Shown in pieces: positions 14,057 to 30,395 of a stretch of 33,944 bases of DNA. Each line of letters starts with the position of its first letter. Position 1 is the stretch's first letter. A program made the position numbers and the translations under genes. Source of the DNA: Plicaturopsis crispa FD-325 SS-3. Taxonomy: Eukaryota; Basidiomycota; Agaricomycetes; Amylocorticiales; Amylocorticiaceae. The stretch spans positions 54,937-88,880 of the forward strand of contig KN832570.1 in NCBI GenBank assembly GCA_000827205.1. Reading direction: 5' to 3'. Under the pieces are notes generated by a model. The model was not told the DNA's origin. It did no database searches and saw nothing but the letters and a program-made list of their open reading frames with translations.

Positions 14057-17000
14057 CTACATACGCCCTCCATGTTCCTGCCACCACAGGAACATCTCCA
14101 ACAAAATTCTACGCACTTGCAACACCTCTAGGGCCAGTGTCAATGCCACGGCCTGTGTCGACGAAAGGCTAATCACAAAAATCAAATAAACGAAGACAAA
14201 ATACAACGCACTCGATGTGGCGCGTTTCTCGTGGTTTCTTGGCGTGTTTCTCATCATAGGTGGGTCGTTATCTATTCTAGCACCCTCGCCGTCCTCACGT
14301 GCATGGTTCGTAGTACGCTCGACGCGTCCGACGCACAATTTCCAAGGTTTGGTGCGCGCCCTCCGAGTTTTCCTAGAGCCGTTTCCGGAATTCTGGGTCG
14401 TGAACGGCGCCCAGTTCGGGCGCGGATTTGACGTCTTTACACTTTGTTCATCGGTGCGTATACGCAAGCGTGATATCGCGCCCTCCGATCTGACCGTATC
14501 GGTGCAGCACGCCGTCAGGGTGCCAGGGTCATTGTCAAGATCAGGTGTGCACATCGCAAATAGGCCTAGTGAGTGTCCACATCTGAGAGCGTCTCGTACG
14601 GGGTCGTCGGTGCTATCGATTAGGGTTGCCGCGTGAACGGTGGTTTGGTACGCAAACCGTTCCGGGCAGTCCTTGACGATGTGTCCCTTGACCTCACATC
14701 GGAAACATCTCCCTTCCGCGCGAAGCCGCGTCCTTCGCGCGTCATCACTTTCTTCCTCATCCTCATCCCCTTCAGGTATGCTTTCAGGCTCGCTCGTAGC
14801 CTCACTGTCGTGACCTTTCGCTGATTCTGTTCCACTGTCAGCAGGGTCTGAACTCTCGACATTTTCGGCATCATCATCCCAAGGCTCCGGACGTCCTATG
14901 GATTCCGGTTCGGATTCGCTGCCGGAGGTATCTTTGAATTCTACCGTCTCTGTGCTGAGAGCTGACTCGCGTAAGACGATGTTGTAGGATTGTTCAAATT
15001 GAACCGCCAGAGTTTCGAGCCTCGACAGTGAGATGGACTCGGGGCTGTACCCGGCTTTGGTAAGTTCAATTCGTAAATATTGTTTGCAACGCCGCCAGAA
15101 TGCGAGCACAATGTCTTTTTCATCTAGATCCCCGACCGTGTTCGCGATGACCTGCAGTGATTGCAGATGATCGCGGACCGTTTGCGATCCTTGCGCGCAC
15201 GCATCGAATTGCTCACGCTGCTGCGCCCGAAAATCAACGGGAAAGACGTGGTCAAATAAACTCTCGAAGAATTCACTCAACGAGTACTTCTTGCGGCGAT
15301 CAAGAACATCGCGTTCGTAGAATTGGTACGCGCGCCCTCCAAGATATTTGCCCAAGGTAAGCATACGCTTCCGGCCTTTCAATCCGGAGAACACTAGCCA
15401 CATCCTGACCTCGCGAATCCATTTCTTGTAGAGCTGCACATCTGGTTCACCCTCGTACACGAAGGGCGGATCAATCTTCAGGAAGGATTGCTGGTACTTC
15501 AATGCGGCGAGTTTAGCTCTATACTTTCGACGCTTCTCGTGCTTACGGCGGCGTGTCTTGTCAGAATCACTTGAGTGGTCGCTCTCGGGCTCGCGGCTGA
15601 AGATATCCGTGTGCGAATCCGAATCCGACTGGTCGGAATCGGCTGACGAGCTGCTCGAACCGCTCGGTGAGCTACTCGGGCTCCTCCTTTTCGACCGCCT
15701 CGACCGTTTGACGGATTTTCTACCGCGCTTAGACGACTTCGAAGACGGATACGACATAGCACTCGGACCGTCCGAGTCCGTCAAATCGCTTCCGACACCG
15801 CCCCGCATTGCCCGGCGCACTGAGCCTGTGCGCGGCATCTGTGACGACGCTCGCTCATAGCGCTTGTCGGCCTTGTTACTCGCAGCCTCGTGTTTCGTCG
15901 TGCCCCGCCTTGATGCACTAGTAGTATCCGGTGAGTTCTTCTTCTCACTTTTCTTTTCCCGCTGGTGCTCACGACTCGGGGTTCCTTTAGAACGCTCACA
16001 CCCGTTGTCTAAACGGTCGCGTACGAGTCGTTCCTGGAACTGACGCAGCTGTGTTTCCAGACCCGCGACGCGCTCGCGCTCGCGTTCAAGATTCTCATGG
16101 AGTTGCAACACTAGCGCATAGTCGTTCGCGATCTGCTCATCGCGTGCACGACCCTCATCGGTTGATTTACATCCAATCTGCACAGGAGTTTTGGGAGGTT
16201 TCCCCAAGCATTCCACAGGGCTAACACTCTTGCCTTTCGACCTGGCAGGATTACACTTTGAGGTGTAACCTTCTCCATAGTCGCCGGGCTGAGAGGGCTC
16301 CTCGGTAATGGGGTCATCTGCTACCCGAATCGCACACAGACTTATGTACACTGTCTCGCCATCATCGTAGACGCCATTGCATAAATTATGAGCTTCGTTG
16401 TTCAATTTCCGGGCTACGTTCCGATTTGTAGTACTCCCGATATGCAAGAAAACATCCCCTAGCGAAGGGCTAGGAATGTCTACTGACAAGATCTCTGAAG
16501 AATCGCTGTCCGGCAATATGCCGCGATCATCCTCCAGGTCGTCTCGCTCAAGCTCGGACGACCCTCCCGATTCACTCTCGAACGAGTATGGGAAGAATCT
16601 TCGATTGTCTATATTTACTGCGGTAGGCGCTACACAATGTACGCTACGCGCAGGGGACTTGGGATGCTCGAAGCCATCCTCTCCATAAGCCCCGGACGTA
16701 ACAGTGGGGTCGCGACTCCCGCTGTCAGGTCTCGCCTCCGACTCGGAGGGAGAACCTGTGTCTTCGACGACTGATGTCTCAGTGTCTGTTCTGGATCGGA
16801 GTCCTCGACTCTGATCATCCGACCTCGCCACGCGAGGGTTTTGGACATCGACCCTGGGTGTACCAAAGCCAGTCCTAACCGGCGACTCGGAAGGGAGCTC
16901 GCATCGCGCAAGGACATGGTCCCGGGTGCGTTCTCTAGACGACTGGCCGCTATCACCATCGCAGTGCCCTAAGGCCATAGAGCGTTTCGTCGTCGACCTT

Positions 17001-17230
17001 CCGTCTGCCTGTCCGTCCTTGACGGCGGCGAGAACGTCGCTGCTCCTGTTAGACCAAGCGCTATCAGAAGTCTTTATGATACATTTTGCATTACTTGCCT
17101 CTGCTCCCGCAGTCGCGTCCGACGACGGCGTCGACTCCAAAACCGGAGTCCGACCTAGCGAGGAGGTAGTGCCGAAATTCGAGTGGCCAGTTGCCGTTGG
17201 TGCAAATCCGAAAGTGGTAGGCGCGTCCAT
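14057..17230 (-). CDS. gag: Ty3/Gypsy-type Gag protein with CCHC zinc knuckle
   Basis: A single uninterrupted frame of 1057 aa from ATG at 17230 (MDAPTTFGFAPTATG); the frame is open slightly further upstream but without an ATG. Residues ~1-570 are low-complexity, Ser/Arg/Asp-rich, with an SR-like tract (SKRGRKSVKRSRRSKRRS). Residues ~583-750 are a retrotransposon Gag capsid domain (YKKWIREVRMWLVFSG, GRAYQFYERDVL, REQFDACAQGSQTVRDHLQ). The knuckle CFRCEVKGHIVKDC at ~840-853 is C-x2-C-x4-H-x4-C, expected to bind RNA. A further ~200 residues follow without a protease motif and contain a strongly hydrophobic stretch near the end (ALYFVFVYLIFVISL). A Gag of this length is about twice or three times usual, mainly through the N-terminal extension. 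The intact frame suggests recent activity or selection. Confidence 0.88.
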   Translation of the reverse strand: MDAPTTFGFAPTATGHSNFGTTSSLGRTPVLESTPSSDATAGAEASNAKCIIKTSDSAWSNRSSDVLAAVKDGQADGRSTTKRSMALGHCDGDSGQSSRERTRDHVLARCELPSESPVRTGFGTPRVDVQNPRVARSDDQSRGLRSRTDTETSVVEDTGSPSESEARPDSGSRDPTVTSGAYGEDGFEHPKSPARSVHCVAPTAVNIDNRRFFPYSFESESGGSSELERDDLEDDRGILPDSDSSEILSVDIPSPSLGDVFLHIGSTTNRNVARKLNNEAHNLCNGVYDDGETVYISLCAIRVADDPITEEPSQPGDYGEGYTSKCNPARSKGKSVSPVECLGKPPKTPVQIGCKSTDEGRARDEQIANDYALVLQLHENLERERERVAGLETQLRQFQERLVRDRLDNGCERSKGTPSREHQREKKSEKKNSPDTTSASRRGTTKHEAASNKADKRYERASSQMPRTGSVRRAMRGGVGSDLTDSDGPSAMSYPSSKSSKRGRKSVKRSRRSKRRSPSSSPSGSSSSSADSDQSDSDSHTDIFSREPESDHSSDSDKTRRRKHEKRRKYRAKLAALKYQQSFLKIDPPFVYEGEPDVQLYKKWIREVRMWLVFSGLKGRKRMLTLGKYLGGRAYQFYERDVLDRRKKYSLSEFFESLFDHVFPVDFRAQQREQFDACAQGSQTVRDHLQSLQVIANTVGDLDEKDIVLAFWRRCKQYLRIELTKAGYSPESISLSRLETLAVQFEQSYNIVLRESALSTETVEFKDTSGSESEPESIGRPEPWDDDAENVESSDPADSGTESAKGHDSEATSEPESIPEGDEDEEESDDARRTRLRAEGRCFRCEVKGHIVKDCPERFAYQTTVHAATLIDSTDDPVRDALRCGHSLGLFAMCTPDLDNDPGTLTACCTDTVRSEGAISRLRIRTDEQSVKTSNPRPNWAPFTTQNSGNGSRKTRRARTKPWKLCVGRVERTTNHAREDGEGARIDNDPPMMRNTPRNHEKRATSSALYFVFVYLIFVISLSSTQAVALTLALEVLQVRRILLEMFLWWQEHGGRM

Positions 17231-17320
17231 AGTCGACCGATAGTCCAGGGTGATCAAGCCTAGAGTCGCGAAGTCGACGAGAGAGTAGCCAGAGATACGA
17301 GATAGAGTTCTAGTTCAAAA

Positions 17321-19622: not shown

Positions 19623-21134
19623 AGCAGTCTCTGGGTCTTGTGCTCATGTGTGTTCATCACTATTTTGTACCTCGTTGCTCGCGTCTCCTTACTTGCGCAC
19701 CATGAGACTCCGTGGCGCATACCGCTGCCTCCTGTTCCCGTCTGTGTTATAATACCTGTCATACACATAATTATAAGTGAGCAAATGTGGTATTGCATAT
19801 GCACAGTTGACCAAGATAGGTCCGTCTAATGGATGTCTTAACGAGCAAACATTTGAAGATTAAATGTGCCATTTGCTATAGATGCCATCGCGCGCGTCAG
19901 CGCCCTGCCTCGCTCCTCCAATCGGCTCTGCACACGACAAGTTACGTTGCGTCAAGTATCCCAAGACCAGCCTGATTCAGTCGTTGCAGGCCTTGTAGCG
20001 TTGTAGCTCACGAGCGTACCCCGCCACCCCCCGCGGGTGTGCGCTAGACTCGGATTCATGTAGCGCGTGAGCAGCTGCAGGTCGGCCGTAACTCTGTAGG
20101 TAGGTTTGACTCAATTTTCACCCCTACTAGCCATGCTAAGCTCTTCATGTTGTGTAGCCATCCTGCTGTGTCACATCCCGCGGCACTTCGCCGTCTTGTT
20201 GCTATCGAGTGCACCACTTCCCGCGCCTCGCCAGACCCCCAAAGAAAGTATAATGGATCAAGATCCCGCGAGTAGCTAGCGGCTGCTCGTCACTATGAGT
20301 AAATTGGTTTTTAATCACCGGTGTTTCCTATGCTTACACTTATGTTCAGGTTGTATACAGCCCTTGCTTTTTGTCCCGTGTATGCGCGTGATTGCCACTA
20401 CGGGCGCAGTGCAACCCCTCGACCACGGATTAGCCATGCTCTCGAGCATGTCGATGCGTACTTCAAGCTCATAGACTGGCAACGCGAGCGGCGCTGGCCG
20501 CTCGTCATCGTGATGGGTAAGTTTGCTTTGAATGACAACTCCATTCAATGCTTACACTTCATAGCCGCTACCATATGTTCCCGTACAATTGCGGGCGCGG
20601 TGCGGTGCAGCTCTGTCAAAGCGGCCCCATGAACACATGCACTTGGCAAATGTATCGCCATCCATGTTACGGCCACAATGCGCAGCACTGCCTCTCTTGT
20701 CCCCTTCACTATAGTAGGCCTTATAAATCAGGAATACTCTTGTCCTTCAATGACACGCACACTTGTCTTGCACATGAAATGCCAATATGCTCGCCCGAGG
20801 CAGCCGACGGGCTGGAAGTAAACTGCCCGCTACCATCTTCCGCATGTACAAGCTGCCAGCCATCCTTAGCCGCGCCTCTGCTCAAGAGTCGAGAGACCCG
20901 CGTACTCTTCAATGACAGCTCAGTCGCAATGGACCACTGGCACGGGCCTCGTACTGCTCTCTGGCATGTCCCTCGACTACTATAGCTTACCCTGCTCTCT
21001 ATTCTACTTGAAGCTGATGCCGCGATCATACGAAGACCATTAGAAGGATATAAGATTCTTTGTGAGATATACGTAGGTATCAATGTAGTTGAGTGTTCGA
21101 GAATGTCCGATTCACGGCTGTCCAAGCAATGTAA
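19623..21134. other. No convincing gene; one exon-like stretch
   Basis: Only one plus-strand stretch (about 20,395-20,515) looks coding: it reads SHALEHVDAYFKLIDWQRER, then RWPLVIVMG, and is followed by GTAAGT. No partner exons could be linked. The rest shows no frame with protein-like composition. Confidence 0.4.
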
Positions 21135-24100
21135 TTACCTGTCAGCTCCCTCTTCGTTCTCCCCATCCGCCTCCTCATCCTCGCCACTTGAGCTCTGTGG
21201 GTTGTCGGACTCTGCAAATTCGAGAGGCATCGAACGATCCAGACCAAGATCGCGGCAAACTGTGTTGCATGAGTGGTCACGAAGAAAGGTGAGAATTCCT
21301 TCACGACCGAAGTCCCCGACGCCAGTATCCCTGATGTTACAATAATGAGCACATAGTCTAAAACACCGTGAGCCAATGCCATACCCCGCAAGAGAATGAG
21401 TCATCAGGTCGAACAAAATCAGACCGTCTTTGCCTCTGACCGGATGAGGTGTTCCTGTCATTGCATGTCAAGAGCACTGTATGAACGAAGGATAAGAGCT
21501 TGTCTTACCTTGAAGGTCAGCAAAGACAAAATTACGGTGGCTAGCACCCCAAACGAAGTGAGCAAAAGCAGAGATGGTCGCCGATCGTAGGTCGCGTCGG
21601 AGAGTGCGGTGGTCAAGTGTTCCACTAAAGCGGATTACAGTTTGCGGACGCCGATCTTCTATTAGCCAGGTCAGGCCTTTGGTATCTTCGTCGATTGTGT
21701 CGACGCCAGATGCACGGCTAGGGCACTCAATTTCTTTCCCAAGAAATGCTCCCGCAAACGCAATGTCTGTTGATGGCGGATTTGAGTGCAGTACATGCAG
21801 TGATGGGGAATCGGACGAGATGACATACCGGAATCCACATGAACATTAACGGATCTGGCGTGCGCGTAAAACTTCTGCAAAAACCACCTACCCCATGCAA
21901 GACGTGCAAGCTTGCACTGGAGCTGTACTTCATTGTCTTCGATGGGTACAGTGGCAGCAATCCGTGACTCCTCATCATCAAAAAGAGGGTCGTGTGCTGT
22001 TTCGTTCTCGCTGATCCTATAGAAGCGCTTGGCGACGTAGCTCTTGCCGTCGCTACATCAGGAAAAGTCAAACCGTCTGAAACGGTCTGAAACCCCTGAT
22101 TTCAGACGGTCAGACGGTCAGATCGGTGTCTGAGTTCAGTAGGTCCCCTTCTGACTTCAGATGCTGTCAGACCGTTCTTCAGACCAAAATCAGACAATTA
22201 TCCTCTCAGAGGTAGTTCAGAGACCTAATTCAGACCGCTTTCATACTGGGATTCAGACAGCTTTAGACGGAATTCAGATCCATAAATTTTAGCTCAGACA
22301 TCGGTAGTACAGCATGAAGGATATATATTCAATGTAGGCTAATACAAAACATGTGTGACTACGTGCGGACTACCGAAAACGAGGAGGAATAAAGTGCAGA
22401 CCAGCTCGGGCGAGCATGGAATTAGTATCGCACCCCGAAGACAGTCCTTGGCTAATCTCTCTGCTGTCAGCATGTACCCATCGCAGTGCTCGTAGGGCTC
22501 ACCGGTGTCCTTGTCCTCACTCAGTCTATTAGCTCTCCACTCATAGCCAAGCAGCTGACAGTCCATGTAACTGTTCGTAGGTTAGCACTACTATACTGGA
22601 TACGCGAGGAGTTCATAGCGTACCGAATCTGTGAGACCTCAAGTGCAGCGGCGACGCGACACGATCAGGGCTTACGAGATTCCTGTCATCTACCCTTGTA
22701 GTTTGCATGATTGGGGTAGATGGCCTATGCAACGACCAGGAAGCAACGAATGATATTTAGTTCAGTCGTCCGTGGATGAAAGGCTGTAAACATACATTAT
22801 GGCTGAGCCGCACCTCCCGTGCAGCTTACCCAGAGTCCTATCGGGGCAGTAGTTGCGTGCGACACCTCTGGGGACACAGGCGAGTGCAGGTGCCAGGCGT
22901 ACGCTTCTTGAAAGCAGACACCGAACCAGAGACCGGACGAAGGAGAAAAGGGAATGTTGGAACAGAACGTCGAAGTTGGCCGCGAAAACGACGGACACTT
23001 ACAAGGATACATACGTGGCAAAATGTAGTTCGAGCGGAGCTTGAATATTACTTAGCCACGTTTGCGACTCGTCTGTGCAACGTCTGCGCCAACGACGTTG
23101 AACGTTGCACCCTGCACGCTGCTCCTCTCGCCCACTTGCCGCCTCGCCTTCAACTAGCCTTCAACTAAGGAGATTATGTCTACGCTGCCCTTTCTTATTT
23201 GCTCATCACCACACATGTCTTCTAGTGCAACCCCAAGACCTACGCTACGACAATTTCCCGGGGGCGCGCAAGCCCGCCTGCAAGTTTCGCAGCGCGTGAA
23301 CTACAGCGCGCGGGGCTTTGCCCACGAAGACGAAGAGAAGTACAAATGTGCACAAGACGCACATGGGCCTGGGTATGTGACAGCTCAGGTGAGCCGCCGC
23401 TCTGTAGTGCATGAGTATCCGTCGATATTGACTAAATTGTATGCCCAGTGTGGCTCAGATAATCGAATGTTCTCGTCCAGGTGAGCCTGGGTGCACGTTT
23501 GCGAGCGCCAGATATTTCGAGTTGTATGTATTAGTTGTACTGTGAATATGACATTCTAGCTTTTTCGTATGTGCAAGTCATCGCGGCTCAGAGTTTGAGT
23601 GCGGTCTGACTCGGGTCTGACTGTCTGAACGACCTTAGAATAACCTATGAAATCTTTGCAACGAAAATCTGACTTCACAATGTACATTCTGAGTCTCGGA
23701 ACACATTCTGAACACGCAAATTTGAGCAGCGGTCAGGATTATTCCCAATTTTCAGTCGATCTCAGTGCTTTCAGCGCGTTCAGATCAGTTCAGACGACTA
23801 AAGGTTTCCTGATGTAGCGAGGAGCTGTAGACGGTCATCAGTACTACTGCCTGCTACAAAATGCGAAATGAAACGAGGCTCATACGTCGTATACGTGCTT
23901 CATCGCACCACTACTGAAAGGCTTGTCGCGAATAGCGCCCTTGACCACAACATTGGTATCCTCAAATTCATACTGTCCGTTTTCGTTATTGACGATGCAT
24001 TTGATCTGCTTCAGTGTGATGTCACTTCGTTTCTGGATTGTCGCTAGGCCCGCGTGACTGGAAGCCCTGAATGTGCTCTTGAACTGGGATGCAGCCCCGG

Positions 24101-25529
24101 TACTAGGACCCAGAAATGCAGGTCGTTAAAAAGGTACAGATTGCCACAATCGTTGGAGAAAAGTTACCACGTGGACGCTTGTTAGCTTCCGATGAATCCT
24201 CGAGCGGTCGGGAACGCTTCGGCGCACCACGCACCATAGAGCGAACCATAGCGTCGGTAGATGGATCATCGTCCTCGTCGGACCCATCTGAGTCGCTTGC
24301 TGCTCCTGCGCGGTGCCGTGCCGCTTTGCGCAGTCTCTTTGAATACTACACGTGGTCAAAAGTACGTGAGCTCGCAAGAACATTTGGTCGCAGTACAGAA
24401 TGGGCACGTACAGAGTGGTGATCGACGTACAGCTCGAAGCAAAGGCATGGTGCTTTCCCCTTGGCATGGCTCTTCCATACGGGAGGAACCTTTTCCAAGT
24501 AGAATGACATTGTAGGAGTCTGATGAAATGCCACGAAATCTCCCAGTTTCATCGTTGACGTGTCCTTCTCAAATACACGGTTTCCGGACCAACGGAACGA
24601 TACCTCTTCACTAGAAATGTATCATAAGCAAATACTAGACTGGCACGACATGCATACTAACTTACGTTTTGAGAGGAGCGGCTCCGTTGCGGTTCCAATC
24701 CCCGGCAATCTGCTGAAGAACGTGCTCCTTGATATCTATTCCAACAGGTTCTACTAAGTTAGTACCGTGTCAATATAGGGAGGTCAATTATAAGTGCTAC
24801 CTGATAGCCATACTGAATAAGCCCATGGCTTGTTCCCGTATGGAAGGTCATTGTTGATCTGCTTCGGGTTATTACTAACCCTGACCTAGTAGATAGACTA
24901 AGATAGTGATGTTGAGCTTCGAATCTAATGAGAAAGCGACTAGCGACATACCTGCCAACAAACCATGGCCTTCTGCTCACCAGGACTCCCGCCAGCACTC
25001 TGGTGAGCCAATAAAGTGGCCGTATTCAACGATGTTCCGCTAAGGCCAGCATGATGATTACTGGCCGGCTGAAGCTTCATCCGCTGGCGCACCGCATCCG
25101 TTCGCTCGCGATGAGACTCGGCCACCGAGAGGCCAGGTGGTTTGGATGGCCCTGTCGGTGGTTCTGAGGCTATGAGATATGTGTCAACTCTTTGCATAGA
25201 TACAAACGAAGCTGTCAACGCACCACCCTTTGTCACCTGTCCGACTAGATTCTTGCGTTTCGGAAAGCCACACGTCTGCGCTATGTCATGAGATCCCGAA
25301 GGAAGGTTTCGGCGTGTGACACCGCATATGATACATTGCGGCCATTTCTGTATGATGAATGTGTGAGGTATCTTGTAAACGGGAAGGCAATGTGACGCAC
25401 CCTAATGTCAGCGTATTCTTCCGAGTCATGCTTGTGCCCGCTGAGTTTGGCGCATTTGCAGCAAAGTCCCGGGCCTTCCTGCAGAATGAACGTCTGTCCA
25501 CAGTCGCTACACTCTGAGTCGGATGGCAT
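21135..25529 (-). pseudogene. Alpha-type protein kinase gene, interrupted by a transposable element
   Basis: Starts at ATG 25529 with CSDCGQTFILQEGPGLCCKC, a cysteine finger, then KWPQCIICG as a second one. Exons 25529-25401, 25347-24952, 24858-24801, 24750-24666, 24610-24412 and further ones join in phase. Later landmarks are ASDSDGSDEDDDPSTDAM (linker, ~24.28 kb) and KPFSSGAMKHVYD (~23.89 kb). The kinase core follows at ~22.04-21.2 kb: GKSYVAKRFYRI (with the ATP-binding Lys), LARLAWGRWFLQKFYAHARS, IRFSGTLDHRTL, FVFADLQGTPHPV, LFDLMTHSL, GVGDFGREGI and HSCNTVC (the Zn-binding end typical of alpha-kinases). The stop is TAA at 21135. Agaricomycetes have expanded alpha-kinases. Apart from the insertion at 22053-23817, just before the ATP-binding Lys, I see no stop or frameshift, so the break looks recent. 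Confidence 0.9.
22053..23817. mobile_element. ~1.76 kb TIR DNA element inserted in the alpha-kinase
   Basis: The ends carry the exact inverted repeat TCGCTACATCAGGAAA (22050-22065 and 23805-23820). Taking CG as a 2 bp target duplication (22051-22052 and 23818-23819), removal leaves the kinase exon in frame. The palindromic CG makes the exact boundary ambiguous. About 250 bp inside each end is packed with GTCTGA/TCAGAC motifs, as in subterminal transposase-binding arrays. No transposase is visible. The interior has small frames only: minus 22566-22339 (MDCQLLGYEWRANRLSEDKD...), a minus segment near 22.8-23.0 kb (FANFDVLFQHSLF-like), and plus 23176-23484 (MSTLPFLICSSPHMSSS...). The element is likely non-autonomous with passenger fragments. 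The superfamily is not assignable by eye. Confidence 0.8.
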
Positions 25530-25924: not shown

Positions 25925-27503
25925 ATGCCTAATCACAACGGCAAAAATGGCTACGGTGAAAAGAACTGTAAGTAAAACAGCAGCTGCCAAGATGCTAGTG
26001 AAACACACTCACTCCCAACGGACCCGCCAGACGAGACGTTGAAGGAAACCCTGCTCAAATATGCACGTCGTGGTCTATCACAAAATGAGAAGCTGGCAAG
26101 ATTGTGTGATGATCACGGCCTCTCAATCGGGTAAGTATGGTTATGGCGTGGGATGCGCCGCAAATTTACTGACACCCCTCATGATTTTGCTGCAACAGAA
26201 AGTCCAAACTGAATGAGCTCGAGCGTAAACATGCGATTCCGTCTGTTCGTCGACAGATTGCTCCGCCGGAACAAGCGAACCAAGCCCTGCTTGATGAGAT
26301 AGACAAGGACATGAGCAATTCCAATGGCCCAAACCATTTCAAGGGAGTGCTCAAGGACCGGGATATCATGCTTCCTAGGTACGCTGTGCGGCTGGTACTG
26401 CCGCTTTCAAGGGGCCCAAATTTGACTCAGTTTTTGTCCTAACAGGGACACTATTCGTGAAACCATGCACACACATCGTCCCGAGGGCTTTGTGCAACGA
26501 TTTCCGGGGAATCGAAACAAGCCTAAAATCGAACGTCGGCCGCTATCGTCTATTGGACCGTTCCACGAAATTTCAGCGGATGGACATGAAAAGTTAGCGC
26601 CCCAAGCCCTGAAAATGGGGCTTGACGTTGGACTACCGATTTATGGCTATAAGGACAAATACTCAGATGCTCTGCTGATGCTTCGAGTGCTACCTGACTG
26701 TCGCACAGCGGCTGCATTGGGCCATGTCTTCTTGGATTTTATACTAGAGACAGGATGTGCGCATCACTTTATTGCTCTTCTACTAGATCGTATACTCAAG
26801 TTCTGCGATCCCAGGCATCCCACTTCAAATGACGACTGACAAAGGCTCGGAGATCGGATGGCAGTATGCGTTCCAGACAGTTCTGCGGTGAGTATAGTTG
26901 TGGCTCATATCCTGTGTATGCTTAGCTCTGCAACTGATGCATGTATTTGAAGCGAAATGTTAGTGCCTGACGTAGATCTCCAAATTTACCCACCGTATAT
27001 GATTCTCAAGAGCGTACACAATACTGTCATCGAAGGTTTCTGGAAATGGCTGCGCGACAAGACGGGCCACAATCTCAAGGAGCACATTCTTCGTGGTAAA
27101 GTAGACGGCATCTTCAACCCTAATGTCCCATGGCACCGGTAATTTTCTTGCTCATATGTATCGTCAATGTGTTCGCTGACAGAACACGCTGCAGTGACCT
27201 TTTCAACTGGATATTTCCACCGATCATTCAGGTAAGCTCGATAGCTTTCGCACTTGCTGGAATCAGCATCGCGTCCGCCATCAAGCGGAAAAGAACATGC
27301 CGTCTGGACACGTTCCAGCCGATGTTCTTGAGCACCCCAAATTCCAAGGAGGTCTCGACTGTAGGGTACGTGTGCCCGTTGAAGTTGTTTCACAGCTCCG
27401 GGAGCACTTGACCGATGAAGTTGGTCCGCGAGAAAGTCATCTCTCTTGGATTACCGACGAGTTTTCAGCAGTGAGACGGCAGGTCGGCCTAGTATCTCCT
27501 TAG
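25925..27503 (+). CDS. Integrase-core (DDE) domain protein of fungal transposon type
   Basis: Eight exon pieces join in frame: 25925-25967, 26031-26130, 26199-26378, 26446-26756, 26815-26887, 26953-27138, 27195-27231 and 27267-27503, giving 388 aa. The N-terminal part (LLKYARRGLSQNEKLARLCD) resembles a helix-turn-helix leader. Catalytic-type residues are Asp in FHEISADGHEKL, Asp in MTTDKGSEIGWQYA and Glu in NTVIEGFWKWLRDKTG, fitting D, D, E of an rve-like fold. The C-terminal part contains LKEHILRGKVDGIF, NMPSGHVPADVLEHP, GGLDCRVRVPVEVV and TDEVGPRESHLSW, which I recall from integrase-core proteins widespread in Agaricomycetes. Such proteins are presumed transposases or their domesticated relatives. 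The last 'intron' (27232-27266) is only 35 bp and deletes conserved residues. The start lies ~400 bp from the alpha-kinase start, divergently. Confidence 0.85.
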
Positions 27504-27615
27504 ACAGTGCTTGGAATGTTTTTAACACCATGTCGAATATCATACAAGCATTGTAATCGATTCACGGCATAATATGGCATACATTATCAAGTGTAGACCA
27601 CCACCAACCTCGAAG

Positions 27616-30395
27616 TCACACCAACATCTCATACTTAGCACTACGTGAGCAGTGGACCATGGTGTGCAAGCGACAACTTACTGCGAGCCGCGTCTGTGGA
27701 CAGGCGCTCGCGGGATCCCCCGGTTGCTCGCCATCCACGAGCGCCGACAGCGACCCGATGAGAGACCATCGCTTCCGTGTCATGGCCTTGTACCTCGTCC
27801 TGATGTCCATCCTGAGCATGTCCAAGCGATGCAGCTCCTCCGGCGCCTCGTTATCTAGTGACTCTAGCCGCAAGAGCCGTATGGACGACGCCTCCGCAGA
27901 TTGCTTGATCGCGCGCGAGACGATGCTCTGCAGTTGGTGCGAAGTAAACGTCCAGATCGCGGCATCCATGGTGTAGCCCCGCCACTTGATCGGCTGGGTC
28001 TGGAACTTGGGCGAAGGGCCAGTCATGCCCGCGCTGAACGTCCGCCACGTCCCAGCACTCATCTCGCCACTCTCGTTGCATGTGCGGATACTCGCCATGG
28101 ACGAGACGGAGCCGTTCCTAGCTCTACCATCCACCAGGATGGAGGGCCCCGTTGCGCTGGGCTTTCGGGGCCCAATGGGCAATGGAGGACGTGTCCTCGG
28201 ACGATGGCTGCTCCCGCTGATTGAGCCCAGCGATGAAGCCGATAGCCCTTGACCCAACTTCACAGGACCATTGGACGCCTGGACCGGGGTGTCCGCAGTG
28301 GTAGGCTGGGACGGCGCAGAGGAAACCGCAGCCTGATAGGGAGGTGGCGCAACATACGAGGGGCTGAACGACGCGGGACTGGGGGCGAGGGAAGGCTGTG
28401 GTGAGCGCGCACGCGGCGGTGGGGGTGGCGACCGTGATGGCGGTGGCGCAGAAGGCAAAGGTGGTGGTGCCGGAGGGGGCACAAAAGAAGTGCTCATCAA
28501 CGGCGCTGATAGAGCGGTAGAAGCAGGAGGCGCGAGCTCCGATGGCCCAGAAGGCTTGCGTACATTGGCTTGTACAGTGTCCACTTCGATATCGGGCGAT
28601 CGGCGCGTCGGTGCAGTTATTGGCCGTCCCTCGGACGTCTCTTTGGACTGCACAAACGCAGGAGGTGTTGGAGGAGGCACATTCGGTAGATCCTTCATGA
28701 TAGCTAACGGCACAGGCGGACTGTGCTCGTAGTCGGCCATGAACGCACTGAGAGGATACTGCAATGTGTCATTCGACACAGCCGTCGACTCCCCGTTCTC
28801 GCCGATAGGCGAGAGCGTCGACTCCTTCGTCCCAGGCGCCGTCGAAGTCAGATTTGTGCGCGGCCCCAGCATTATCCTTGACGACGCCGTCGGCCCTGAG
28901 TTCGGTCTCAAAGACGGGGGCGCGGGCTCGGGCTCGGAGGACTCCGCAGGCATCGTCTGCCCCGGCCCCGCCGACCACATCGGGCTGAACGCGTCAGGCG
29001 TCTCGGGGAACGTCTGCTGCGTCCAAGACGTGGGCGGCGAGGTCGCCGAGGACGACATCGGGCTCTCGGACACCGCGATGCTGTATGTGCGCATCTTCGC
29101 GTCGCGCACCACCGTTATGGGGTTCGGCGTGCTGCCGGAGTGCTGGCAAACGAAGATGCCCCTCGTGGCTGGTGCAAGCATGCCGTCGAGGATGTTGGGC
29201 GACGTGGGCGTCAAGGGGTCCGTTCGAGGCGCCGTGGACGGCCTTAGGGACTTTACGGAGGTCGCGGAGTTGTGTAGTACGGACCCAGCGAGCTGGGAGA
29301 TGGAGCTCATGCAGATGGTAGACGAGGTTATCTTAGGTTCGGACGTTGCGGCGCCAAATGGGGGGAGTGAGGAACATGCAAGGAGTGCGGGCGCTCCCCG
29401 ATGGGGAGAAGCGCTAGTGAGCGATTGACGTTTTGTTGAGTACTAACCCGAGTGCTACCACCAAGAACCCGAGAGGCGGTGCAATTACCCCCAATCGAGT
29501 CGACCTGAACTGCATATAATTAATCAATACCGAAGGAATGCTAAAAATTAAGCGCGACTTACCACTAGGGCCGGTGGGCGGTATGACCCACTCCGGATTT
29601 TCTTCGAGCTTCGCTTTGTCGGTGTTGGACTGCTGAGGGGCGATGGGGTGCAGTTGTACTTGCGGATTGATCGGATGTGGCGCTGGGTAGCGGTGACACG
29701 AACTGGTAGTTCTGCAACAGATTGCGGATGTCTGTCCCAGAGTCGTCAGAAAGGGGACCCTCCGAGATGGCGACCGACCCCGTTCCAGATAGCGGTCCCT
29801 CTGGAACCTCCAGTTGCTCCTGCACAGGAGTCGTCGACTCCCTGTCGACCGTATGCTCGCGCTCTACCCCCTCTGTCGAAGCACTATCCCGGTCAGCACC
29901 TGTGGACTGCATGTGCTGCTCCTGCTCGACTTCAAATGTAGGCGAGGGCGAGGTTCTCCTCAATGAGGGTGACACGATGGACGACTGCTCCCCATTAATA
30001 GAGCGCCCACTGAACGAGGTCCGCTGGGGCATCGACGGCACACTGGGCGCAGGCGACGGCGCCTCCGAGATGCGCGAGATCCTGCGCGACGCCTGGTGCT
30101 CACCCACCTCCAGCCTCGAGTGCGTCGACGCCGAGCGCACCAGCCCCGCGCCCATCTCCTCCTGCAGGAGGCTCGCCGCCGAGGTGCTCCGCCGCCGCGC
30201 GAGCGTCGCGGCGTTCCCGCTTGCGCTCGCGCCCTTGACGAAGCCGGGCATCGGGGGGATGGGCGGAATGGGCGATGTGCGGCCGGTGTCGGGCGTCATG
30301 ACCATGGAGCTAGTGAAGACGCGCCGCTCACACCAGTACGGCGAGTTGAGCATGGGGCTCTCGCCGGGCGGGAGCGTCGCGGAGTCCTGGCTCAT
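27616..30395 (-). CDS. Large Pro/Ser-rich conserved protein of unknown function
   Basis: Two long open segments on the minus strand belong to one gene. The first (from ATG 30395, MSQDSATLPPGESPML) has SPYWCERRVFTSSMVMTPDT and SPIPPIPPMPGFVKG, then Ser-rich text to NLLQNYQFVSPLPSAT (~29.69 kb). A second frame then carries LEENPEWVIPPTGPS to a GTAAGT donor (~29.56 kb). The second segment (about 29.44-27.62 kb) begins with KITSSTICMSSISQLAGSVL and has long Pro tracts (VPPPAPPPLPSAPPPS). It ends with a conserved helical region (QLQSIVSRAIKQSAEASSIR, RLDMLRMDIRTRYKAM, RKRWSLIGSLSAL). From memory such proteins are conserved, unnamed, in mushrooms; the mix suggests a regulatory or scaffold protein. 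A frame change between 29.61 and 29.69 kb is needed. The C-terminus may be spliced at GTAAGT near 27.69 kb. The true start may be further upstream. Confidence 0.7.

Follow-up and report, generated by a model that had tools for sequence, protein, structure and literature searches.

Alpha-kinase genes are reported to be highly expanded in rust fungi (PMC4469406, as excerpted). In those rust IS3EU transposon families that have a TET gene, TET lies between the transposase gene and an alpha-kinase gene, the latter two being in opposite orientation (PMC12730594, excerpted text). The same excerpt describes PlavakaB, a group of the CMCT clade with ends CATCA..TGATG and target-site duplications of 2 or 3 bp. 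A search of the literature joining alpha-kinase, integrase, fungi and transposon found no report.

Here we analyze an interrupted alpha-kinase gene of Plicaturopsis crispa with respect to both systems. The window, i.e., the whole stretch of 33,944 nucleotides that was analyzed, corresponds to positions 54937-88880 of contig C17 in an assembly of 33.2 Mb and 49 contigs. Its numerous introns of about 60 bases, the Plavaka and KDZ transposons and an alpha-kinase of this type would fit a basidiomycete. The kinase gene occupies the minus strand from 25529 to 21135 and, when modeled by comparison with a paralogue on contig C3, consists of 12 exons and 11 introns. Exons 2 and 3 are separate, and the intron between them is common to the window copy and the C3 paralogue. 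The features of the gene and its insertion are as follows.

25401-25529, minus strand: alpha-kinase exon 1, start codon at 25529
25224-25347, minus strand: alpha-kinase exon 2
24952-25169, minus strand: alpha-kinase exon 3
24801-24885, minus strand: alpha-kinase exon 4
24666-24753, minus strand: alpha-kinase exon 5
24412-24610, minus strand: alpha-kinase exon 6
24168-24345, minus strand: alpha-kinase exon 7
24110-24167, minus strand: intron 7, ending in GG in place of AG (AG in the paralogue) and without an internal AG
23886-24109, minus strand: alpha-kinase exon 8
23817-23824, minus strand: alpha-kinase exon 9, first 8 bases, ahead of the insertion
23815-23816, no strand: target-site duplication TA, right copy
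22056-23814, no strand: non-autonomous PlavakaB-like DNA transposon, 1759 bp, ends CATCAGGAAA..TTTCCTGATG, delimited by inverted ends and family copies
22054-22055, no strand: target-site duplication TA, left copy
21829-22053, minus strand: remainder of exon 9, with VAKRF; the PF02816 match starts here
21509-21766, minus strand: alpha-kinase exon 10
21385-21454, minus strand: alpha-kinase exon 11
21135-21330, minus strand: alpha-kinase exon 12 and stop codon

An earlier note on this DNA had placed the split kinase between 21135 and 25529 and had described its exons as free of stops and frameshifts and rejoining in frame; both statements hold, the first with both halves on the minus strand and the second for all 12 exons of the present model. 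Beyond the insert, the kinase gives a Pfam PF02816 match (E 6.7e-23) that covers profile positions 20-185 of 185 and scores 82.2 bits, versus a curated cut-off of 21.3 (C3 paralogue, 84.9 bits). When compared with solved structures, this part of the kinase matched alpha-kinases, the best being myosin heavy chain kinase A (5dyj, E 1.5e-6). With alpha-kinases such as this Dictyostelium enzyme it shares the PF02816 domain, DLQG and the zinc-binding H..CN..C block, but it differs from that type in that its fungal N-terminal region matches no Pfam family and its catalytic domain is interrupted. A genome search revealed at least four alpha-kinase loci, the window locus included. Elsewhere in the window, a single open frame of 1085 aa (14057-17314, minus strand) has sub-threshold zinc-knuckle (E 0.0009) and Gag (E 0.04) matches and represents a lone Gag-like protein.

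Since the PF02816 match begins at profile position 20, the element sits near that position, before VAKRF, and the window kinase lacks an uninterrupted catalytic domain. The claim that a mobile element splits the catalytic core at this point was borne out by the inverted ends, the TA duplication and the profile match; the spacing of about 6 bases from the intron acceptor needs correction, the TA starting 8 bases after the acceptor of intron 8. When the TA is counted once, exon 9 starts LLASDGKSYVAKRF, equal in length to LILDDGGSYVAKRF of the uninterrupted paralogue. The insertion is real and precise, and was made by a known kind of element. The assembly, which may be haploid, contains a single copy of the site and no empty allele.

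Sixteen stretches of the genome match the element; of the other copies, the nearest shows 94 percent identity over roughly half of the query. We looked at ten copies. Seven have two visible ends, and in each of them the flanking dinucleotides are identical on both sides (TA, CA, AG, TA, TG, CG and AT); the other three have one end missing or not found. Matching pairs of varied sequence in all seven copies show a 2-bp duplication with no fixed sequence. A hAT element with 8-bp duplications was rejected, the flanking pairs being 2 bases long and variable in sequence. A Tc1/mariner element, which uses TA only, was likewise rejected, as the 2-base pairs differ between copies.

The element is like PlavakaB, as far as the excerpted definition goes (PMC12730594), in its CATCA..TGATG ends, in its varied 2-bp duplications, which fall within the 2 or 3 bp of that group in 7/7 copies with both ends visible, and in the many Plavaka transposase genes of the same genome (at least 84 matching stretches; KDZ transposases match at least 43). 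It is unlike PlavakaB in that the window element is 1.76 kb long and lacks a recognized transposase: neither a Pfam search of two reading frames nor tblastn with Plavaka frames detected a Plavaka transposase inside it, so we regard it as non-autonomous. The exact decamer TTTCCTGATG is present on the coding strand downstream of three of four sampled Plavaka genes, 0.4, 0.5 and 1.7 kb past the stop codon, and is absent beside the fourth. Control stretches totaling 64.8 kb contain, with both strands counted, two matches that lie outside the element, a frequency at which about 0.18 occurrences would be expected beside the sampled genes; these two control decamers are themselves either chance matches or unexplained, which counts against the link to PlavakaB, as does the fourth gene.

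Neither the sampled Plavaka genes nor locus L058 allowed a complete autonomous partner to be delimited. Locus L058 has a related end close to Plavaka matches, but its 467-aa reading frame fits none of the Plavaka models and no far end could be located. On C12, related ends (L036 and L037) lie beside long N stretches, 9472 and 9461 of the 9901 fetched bases being N. Another copy of the element (L030, C3:534352-536117) interrupts a KDZ transposase gene, the profile match resuming at the base after the element; stops occur in the first part of this gene. The related ends CATCAGCAAACCTCAAGTCGTCTGAATCG, which form a second family, were seen at three places (L046, C7:1556802; L049, C10:1160106; L054, C24:38125).

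The earlier note had also seen no other decay in the gene, and this does not stand. Ten of the 11 introns of the window kinase end in AG, as do all 11 in the paralogue, which has AG at the intron-7 position as well; intron 7 of the window copy (24167-24110) ends in GG and contains no internal AG. The next AG (24103) would lead to a stop after 19 codons. On paper, other in-frame routes around intron 7 exist among the 10 listed of 32; for example, the same donor could be joined to the AG at 24045-24044, with part of exon 8 dropped. Because of these routes, the change at intron 7 is likely, rather than proven, to be a second lesion of the kinase, and the GG may stem from a single-base assembly error.

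The kinase gene is accompanied by a head-to-head neighbor with the following features.

26030-27556, plus strand: integrase-like (DDE) gene, head to head with the kinase; first-exon start not fixed
27232-27236, plus strand: integrase-like gene, first of two frameshifting deletions, 1 base fewer than in the C3 copy
27474-27481, plus strand: integrase-like gene, second of two frameshifting deletions, 16 bases fewer than in the C3 copy

The same head-to-head pair occurs at the related C3 locus, the two integrases being 85 percent identical over the main exon. The acidic residues D45, D112 and E155, in the order D, D, E, are invariant in three of three aligned relatives, and we take them to be DDE residues. 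Among Pfam families the core matches rva_4 alone, at E 0.2, too weakly to pass the cut-off of that family, and no solved structure matched the protein. Further integrase-like matches were found on C26 and C15, the C26 match having no kinase within the 6.5 kb fetched. Two of the four alpha-kinase loci have the partner; none was present in the 6.0 and 6.5 kb fetched around the other two. Searches of two non-fungal collections gave no relatives of the integrase exon or the kinase exon in viral_contigs and none of the integrase exon in genome_contigs.

The C3 kinase is open throughout. The C3 integrase (L033/L074/L077, C3:2122697-2129823) is split by an LTR retrotransposon whose two 193-bp LTRs are identical and which is flanked by the duplication GATAA, indicative of a very recent insertion. 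Both pairs are broken, the window integrase by deletions and the C3 integrase by the retrotransposon. When window and C3 are compared, pS lies between 0.70 and 0.77 in four stretches out of five, with 0.50 in the fifth (34 codons), and pN is 0.07 to 0.21. Nearly saturated synonymous sites together with low pN indicate that both genes were long kept by selection; the C3 pair is a very old second copy.

In layout the pair resembles the IS3EU gene pair of rusts, as excerpted in PMC12730594, with an integrase-like DDE gene and an alpha-kinase gene side by side in opposite orientation, an arrangement found at two of two loci of this integrase subfamily that have a kinase. The likeness is one of layout only, and the sub-threshold Pfam match, the lack of a matching structure and the two kinase loci without a partner speak against an IS3EU origin. 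Unlike IS3EU as excerpted, the pair is present as two old single copies only and shows no TET/JBP gene between its members, no TAYGG..CCRTA ends and no 6-bp duplication. Local alignment, a motif search and a paired scan of 20001-21134 versus 27551-29000 detected neither TAYGG..CCRTA nor TA..TA terminal repeats around it, and the best exact-6-mer pair reached 13 of 25, versus 12 to 15 in ten shuffles. The best likeness between the outer flanks of the two loci is 17/18 bases (E 0.04), joining the integrase side of the window to the kinase side of C3, and has no TA end. Both closely related loci pair the kinase with an integrase-like gene, which favors cargo of a transposon over an ordinary host gene; the kinase is probably old transposon cargo.

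To date the insertion, we compared the four near-full copies of the element over 1557 gap-free columns, leaving a fifth, partial copy out of the divergence count. Private differences number 38 in the window copy, 31 in C7, 40 in C9 and 35 in C10, and only nine sites are shared two and two; this star-shaped pattern points to one burst of copies. Neutral evolution of the kinase over the full private divergence of the element (2.4 percent) should have produced 1.7 nonsense changes and 2.7 to 4.0 frameshifts in it, if 2 and 3 indels per kb are assumed (the window copy has seven private indel runs, two of which are parts of one gap). No nonsense change or frameshift was seen in the kinase exons, versus 2.7 to 5.7 disabling changes expected. 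The probability of this outcome is 0.003 to 0.013, or 0.03 to 0.07 when C-to-T and G-to-A changes are left out (1.5 percent divergence). With fewer disabling changes than the divergence of the element predicts, the hop into the kinase is probably younger than this element copy itself. The result is most simply read as the later move of an older copy into the kinase, and cut-and-paste movement would leave no source copy behind. Of the "very young null allele" proposed earlier, the youth of the insertion relative to the copy fits; the likely loss of the intron-7 acceptor and the two frameshifting deletions in the partner do not.

Taken together, we consider it likely that the locus records the decay of a transposon within a transposon, a PlavakaB element in a decayed IS3EU-type unit, and not a newly arisen null allele in a gene of the host. 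Judging from gene order and published descriptions, kinase and integrase-like gene together form an old head-to-head unit, which was most likely an IS3EU-type transposon and has since decayed. A non-autonomous PlavakaB element, moving by cut-and-paste with a transposase presumably supplied from elsewhere in the genome, evidently entered a TA in exon 9, and the TA was duplicated. From the sequence, the kinase message would end within the element, ahead of the ATP-binding lysine, which would make the window copy a null allele; that this copy is null is probable. In the window unit, the frame of the integrase and a splice acceptor of the kinase also appear to have been lost, and with acceptor and partner both affected the gene would not have been spoiled by the insertion alone. 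The case is mostly one of ordinary nested insertion.

We regard as unlikely that the gene is instead a host alpha-kinase carrying a null allele of recent origin, perhaps still dimorphic among strains or nuclei, with the integrase-like neighbor there by chance or unrelated. Exons free of stops and frameshifts, with the low probabilities given above, strong purifying selection relative to the paralogue and the failure to find IS3EU ends around the pair all agree with a host gene, but the same head-to-head partner recurs at C3, intron 7 has no AG end, and no empty allele is present in an assembly that may be haploid. Splicing of the element as part of a long intron, with kinase still being made, is very improbable: although donor 23885 and the AG at 22044-22043 would join in frame, keeping VAKRF at a cost of seven residues, the resulting intron would measure 1843 bases, whereas the other introns of the gene measure 47 to 66 (46 to 73 where measured in paralogue stretches), and intron 7 is also defective. 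Of 11 candidate junctions in this splice scan, the three with donor 24025 were set aside for their wrong register.

Two further readings would keep the pair together as a functional unit, and to each we assign a small chance. The integrase-like gene and the kinase could form a host module of two genes that was domesticated from a transposon, both members of which were lost in the window copy. This would agree with two single copies whose synonymous sites are near saturation and whose pN is low in both genes, with the lack of recognizable terminal repeats around the pair, and with the C3 locus, where both frames are open apart from the one retrotransposon; however, transposon-borne genes could show the same selection pattern, the proposal rests on a single genome, and the integrase-like matches on C26 and C15, the former lacking a nearby kinase, speak against it. 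It is similarly doubtful, though conceivable, that a mutually dependent integrase/kinase module from IS3EU was kept in mushroom-like fungi without terminal repeats, that an unrelated transposon hit each copy, in the kinase in one and in the integrase in the other, and that the window module is dying as a unit.

With nested decay as the preferred reading, an apparently broken host kinase is recast as a case in which transposons break down each other. Should fungal alpha-kinases often be carried by transposons, the number of alpha-kinase genes in a fungal genome would in part measure its transposons. The role of the kinase for a transposon becomes a testable question.
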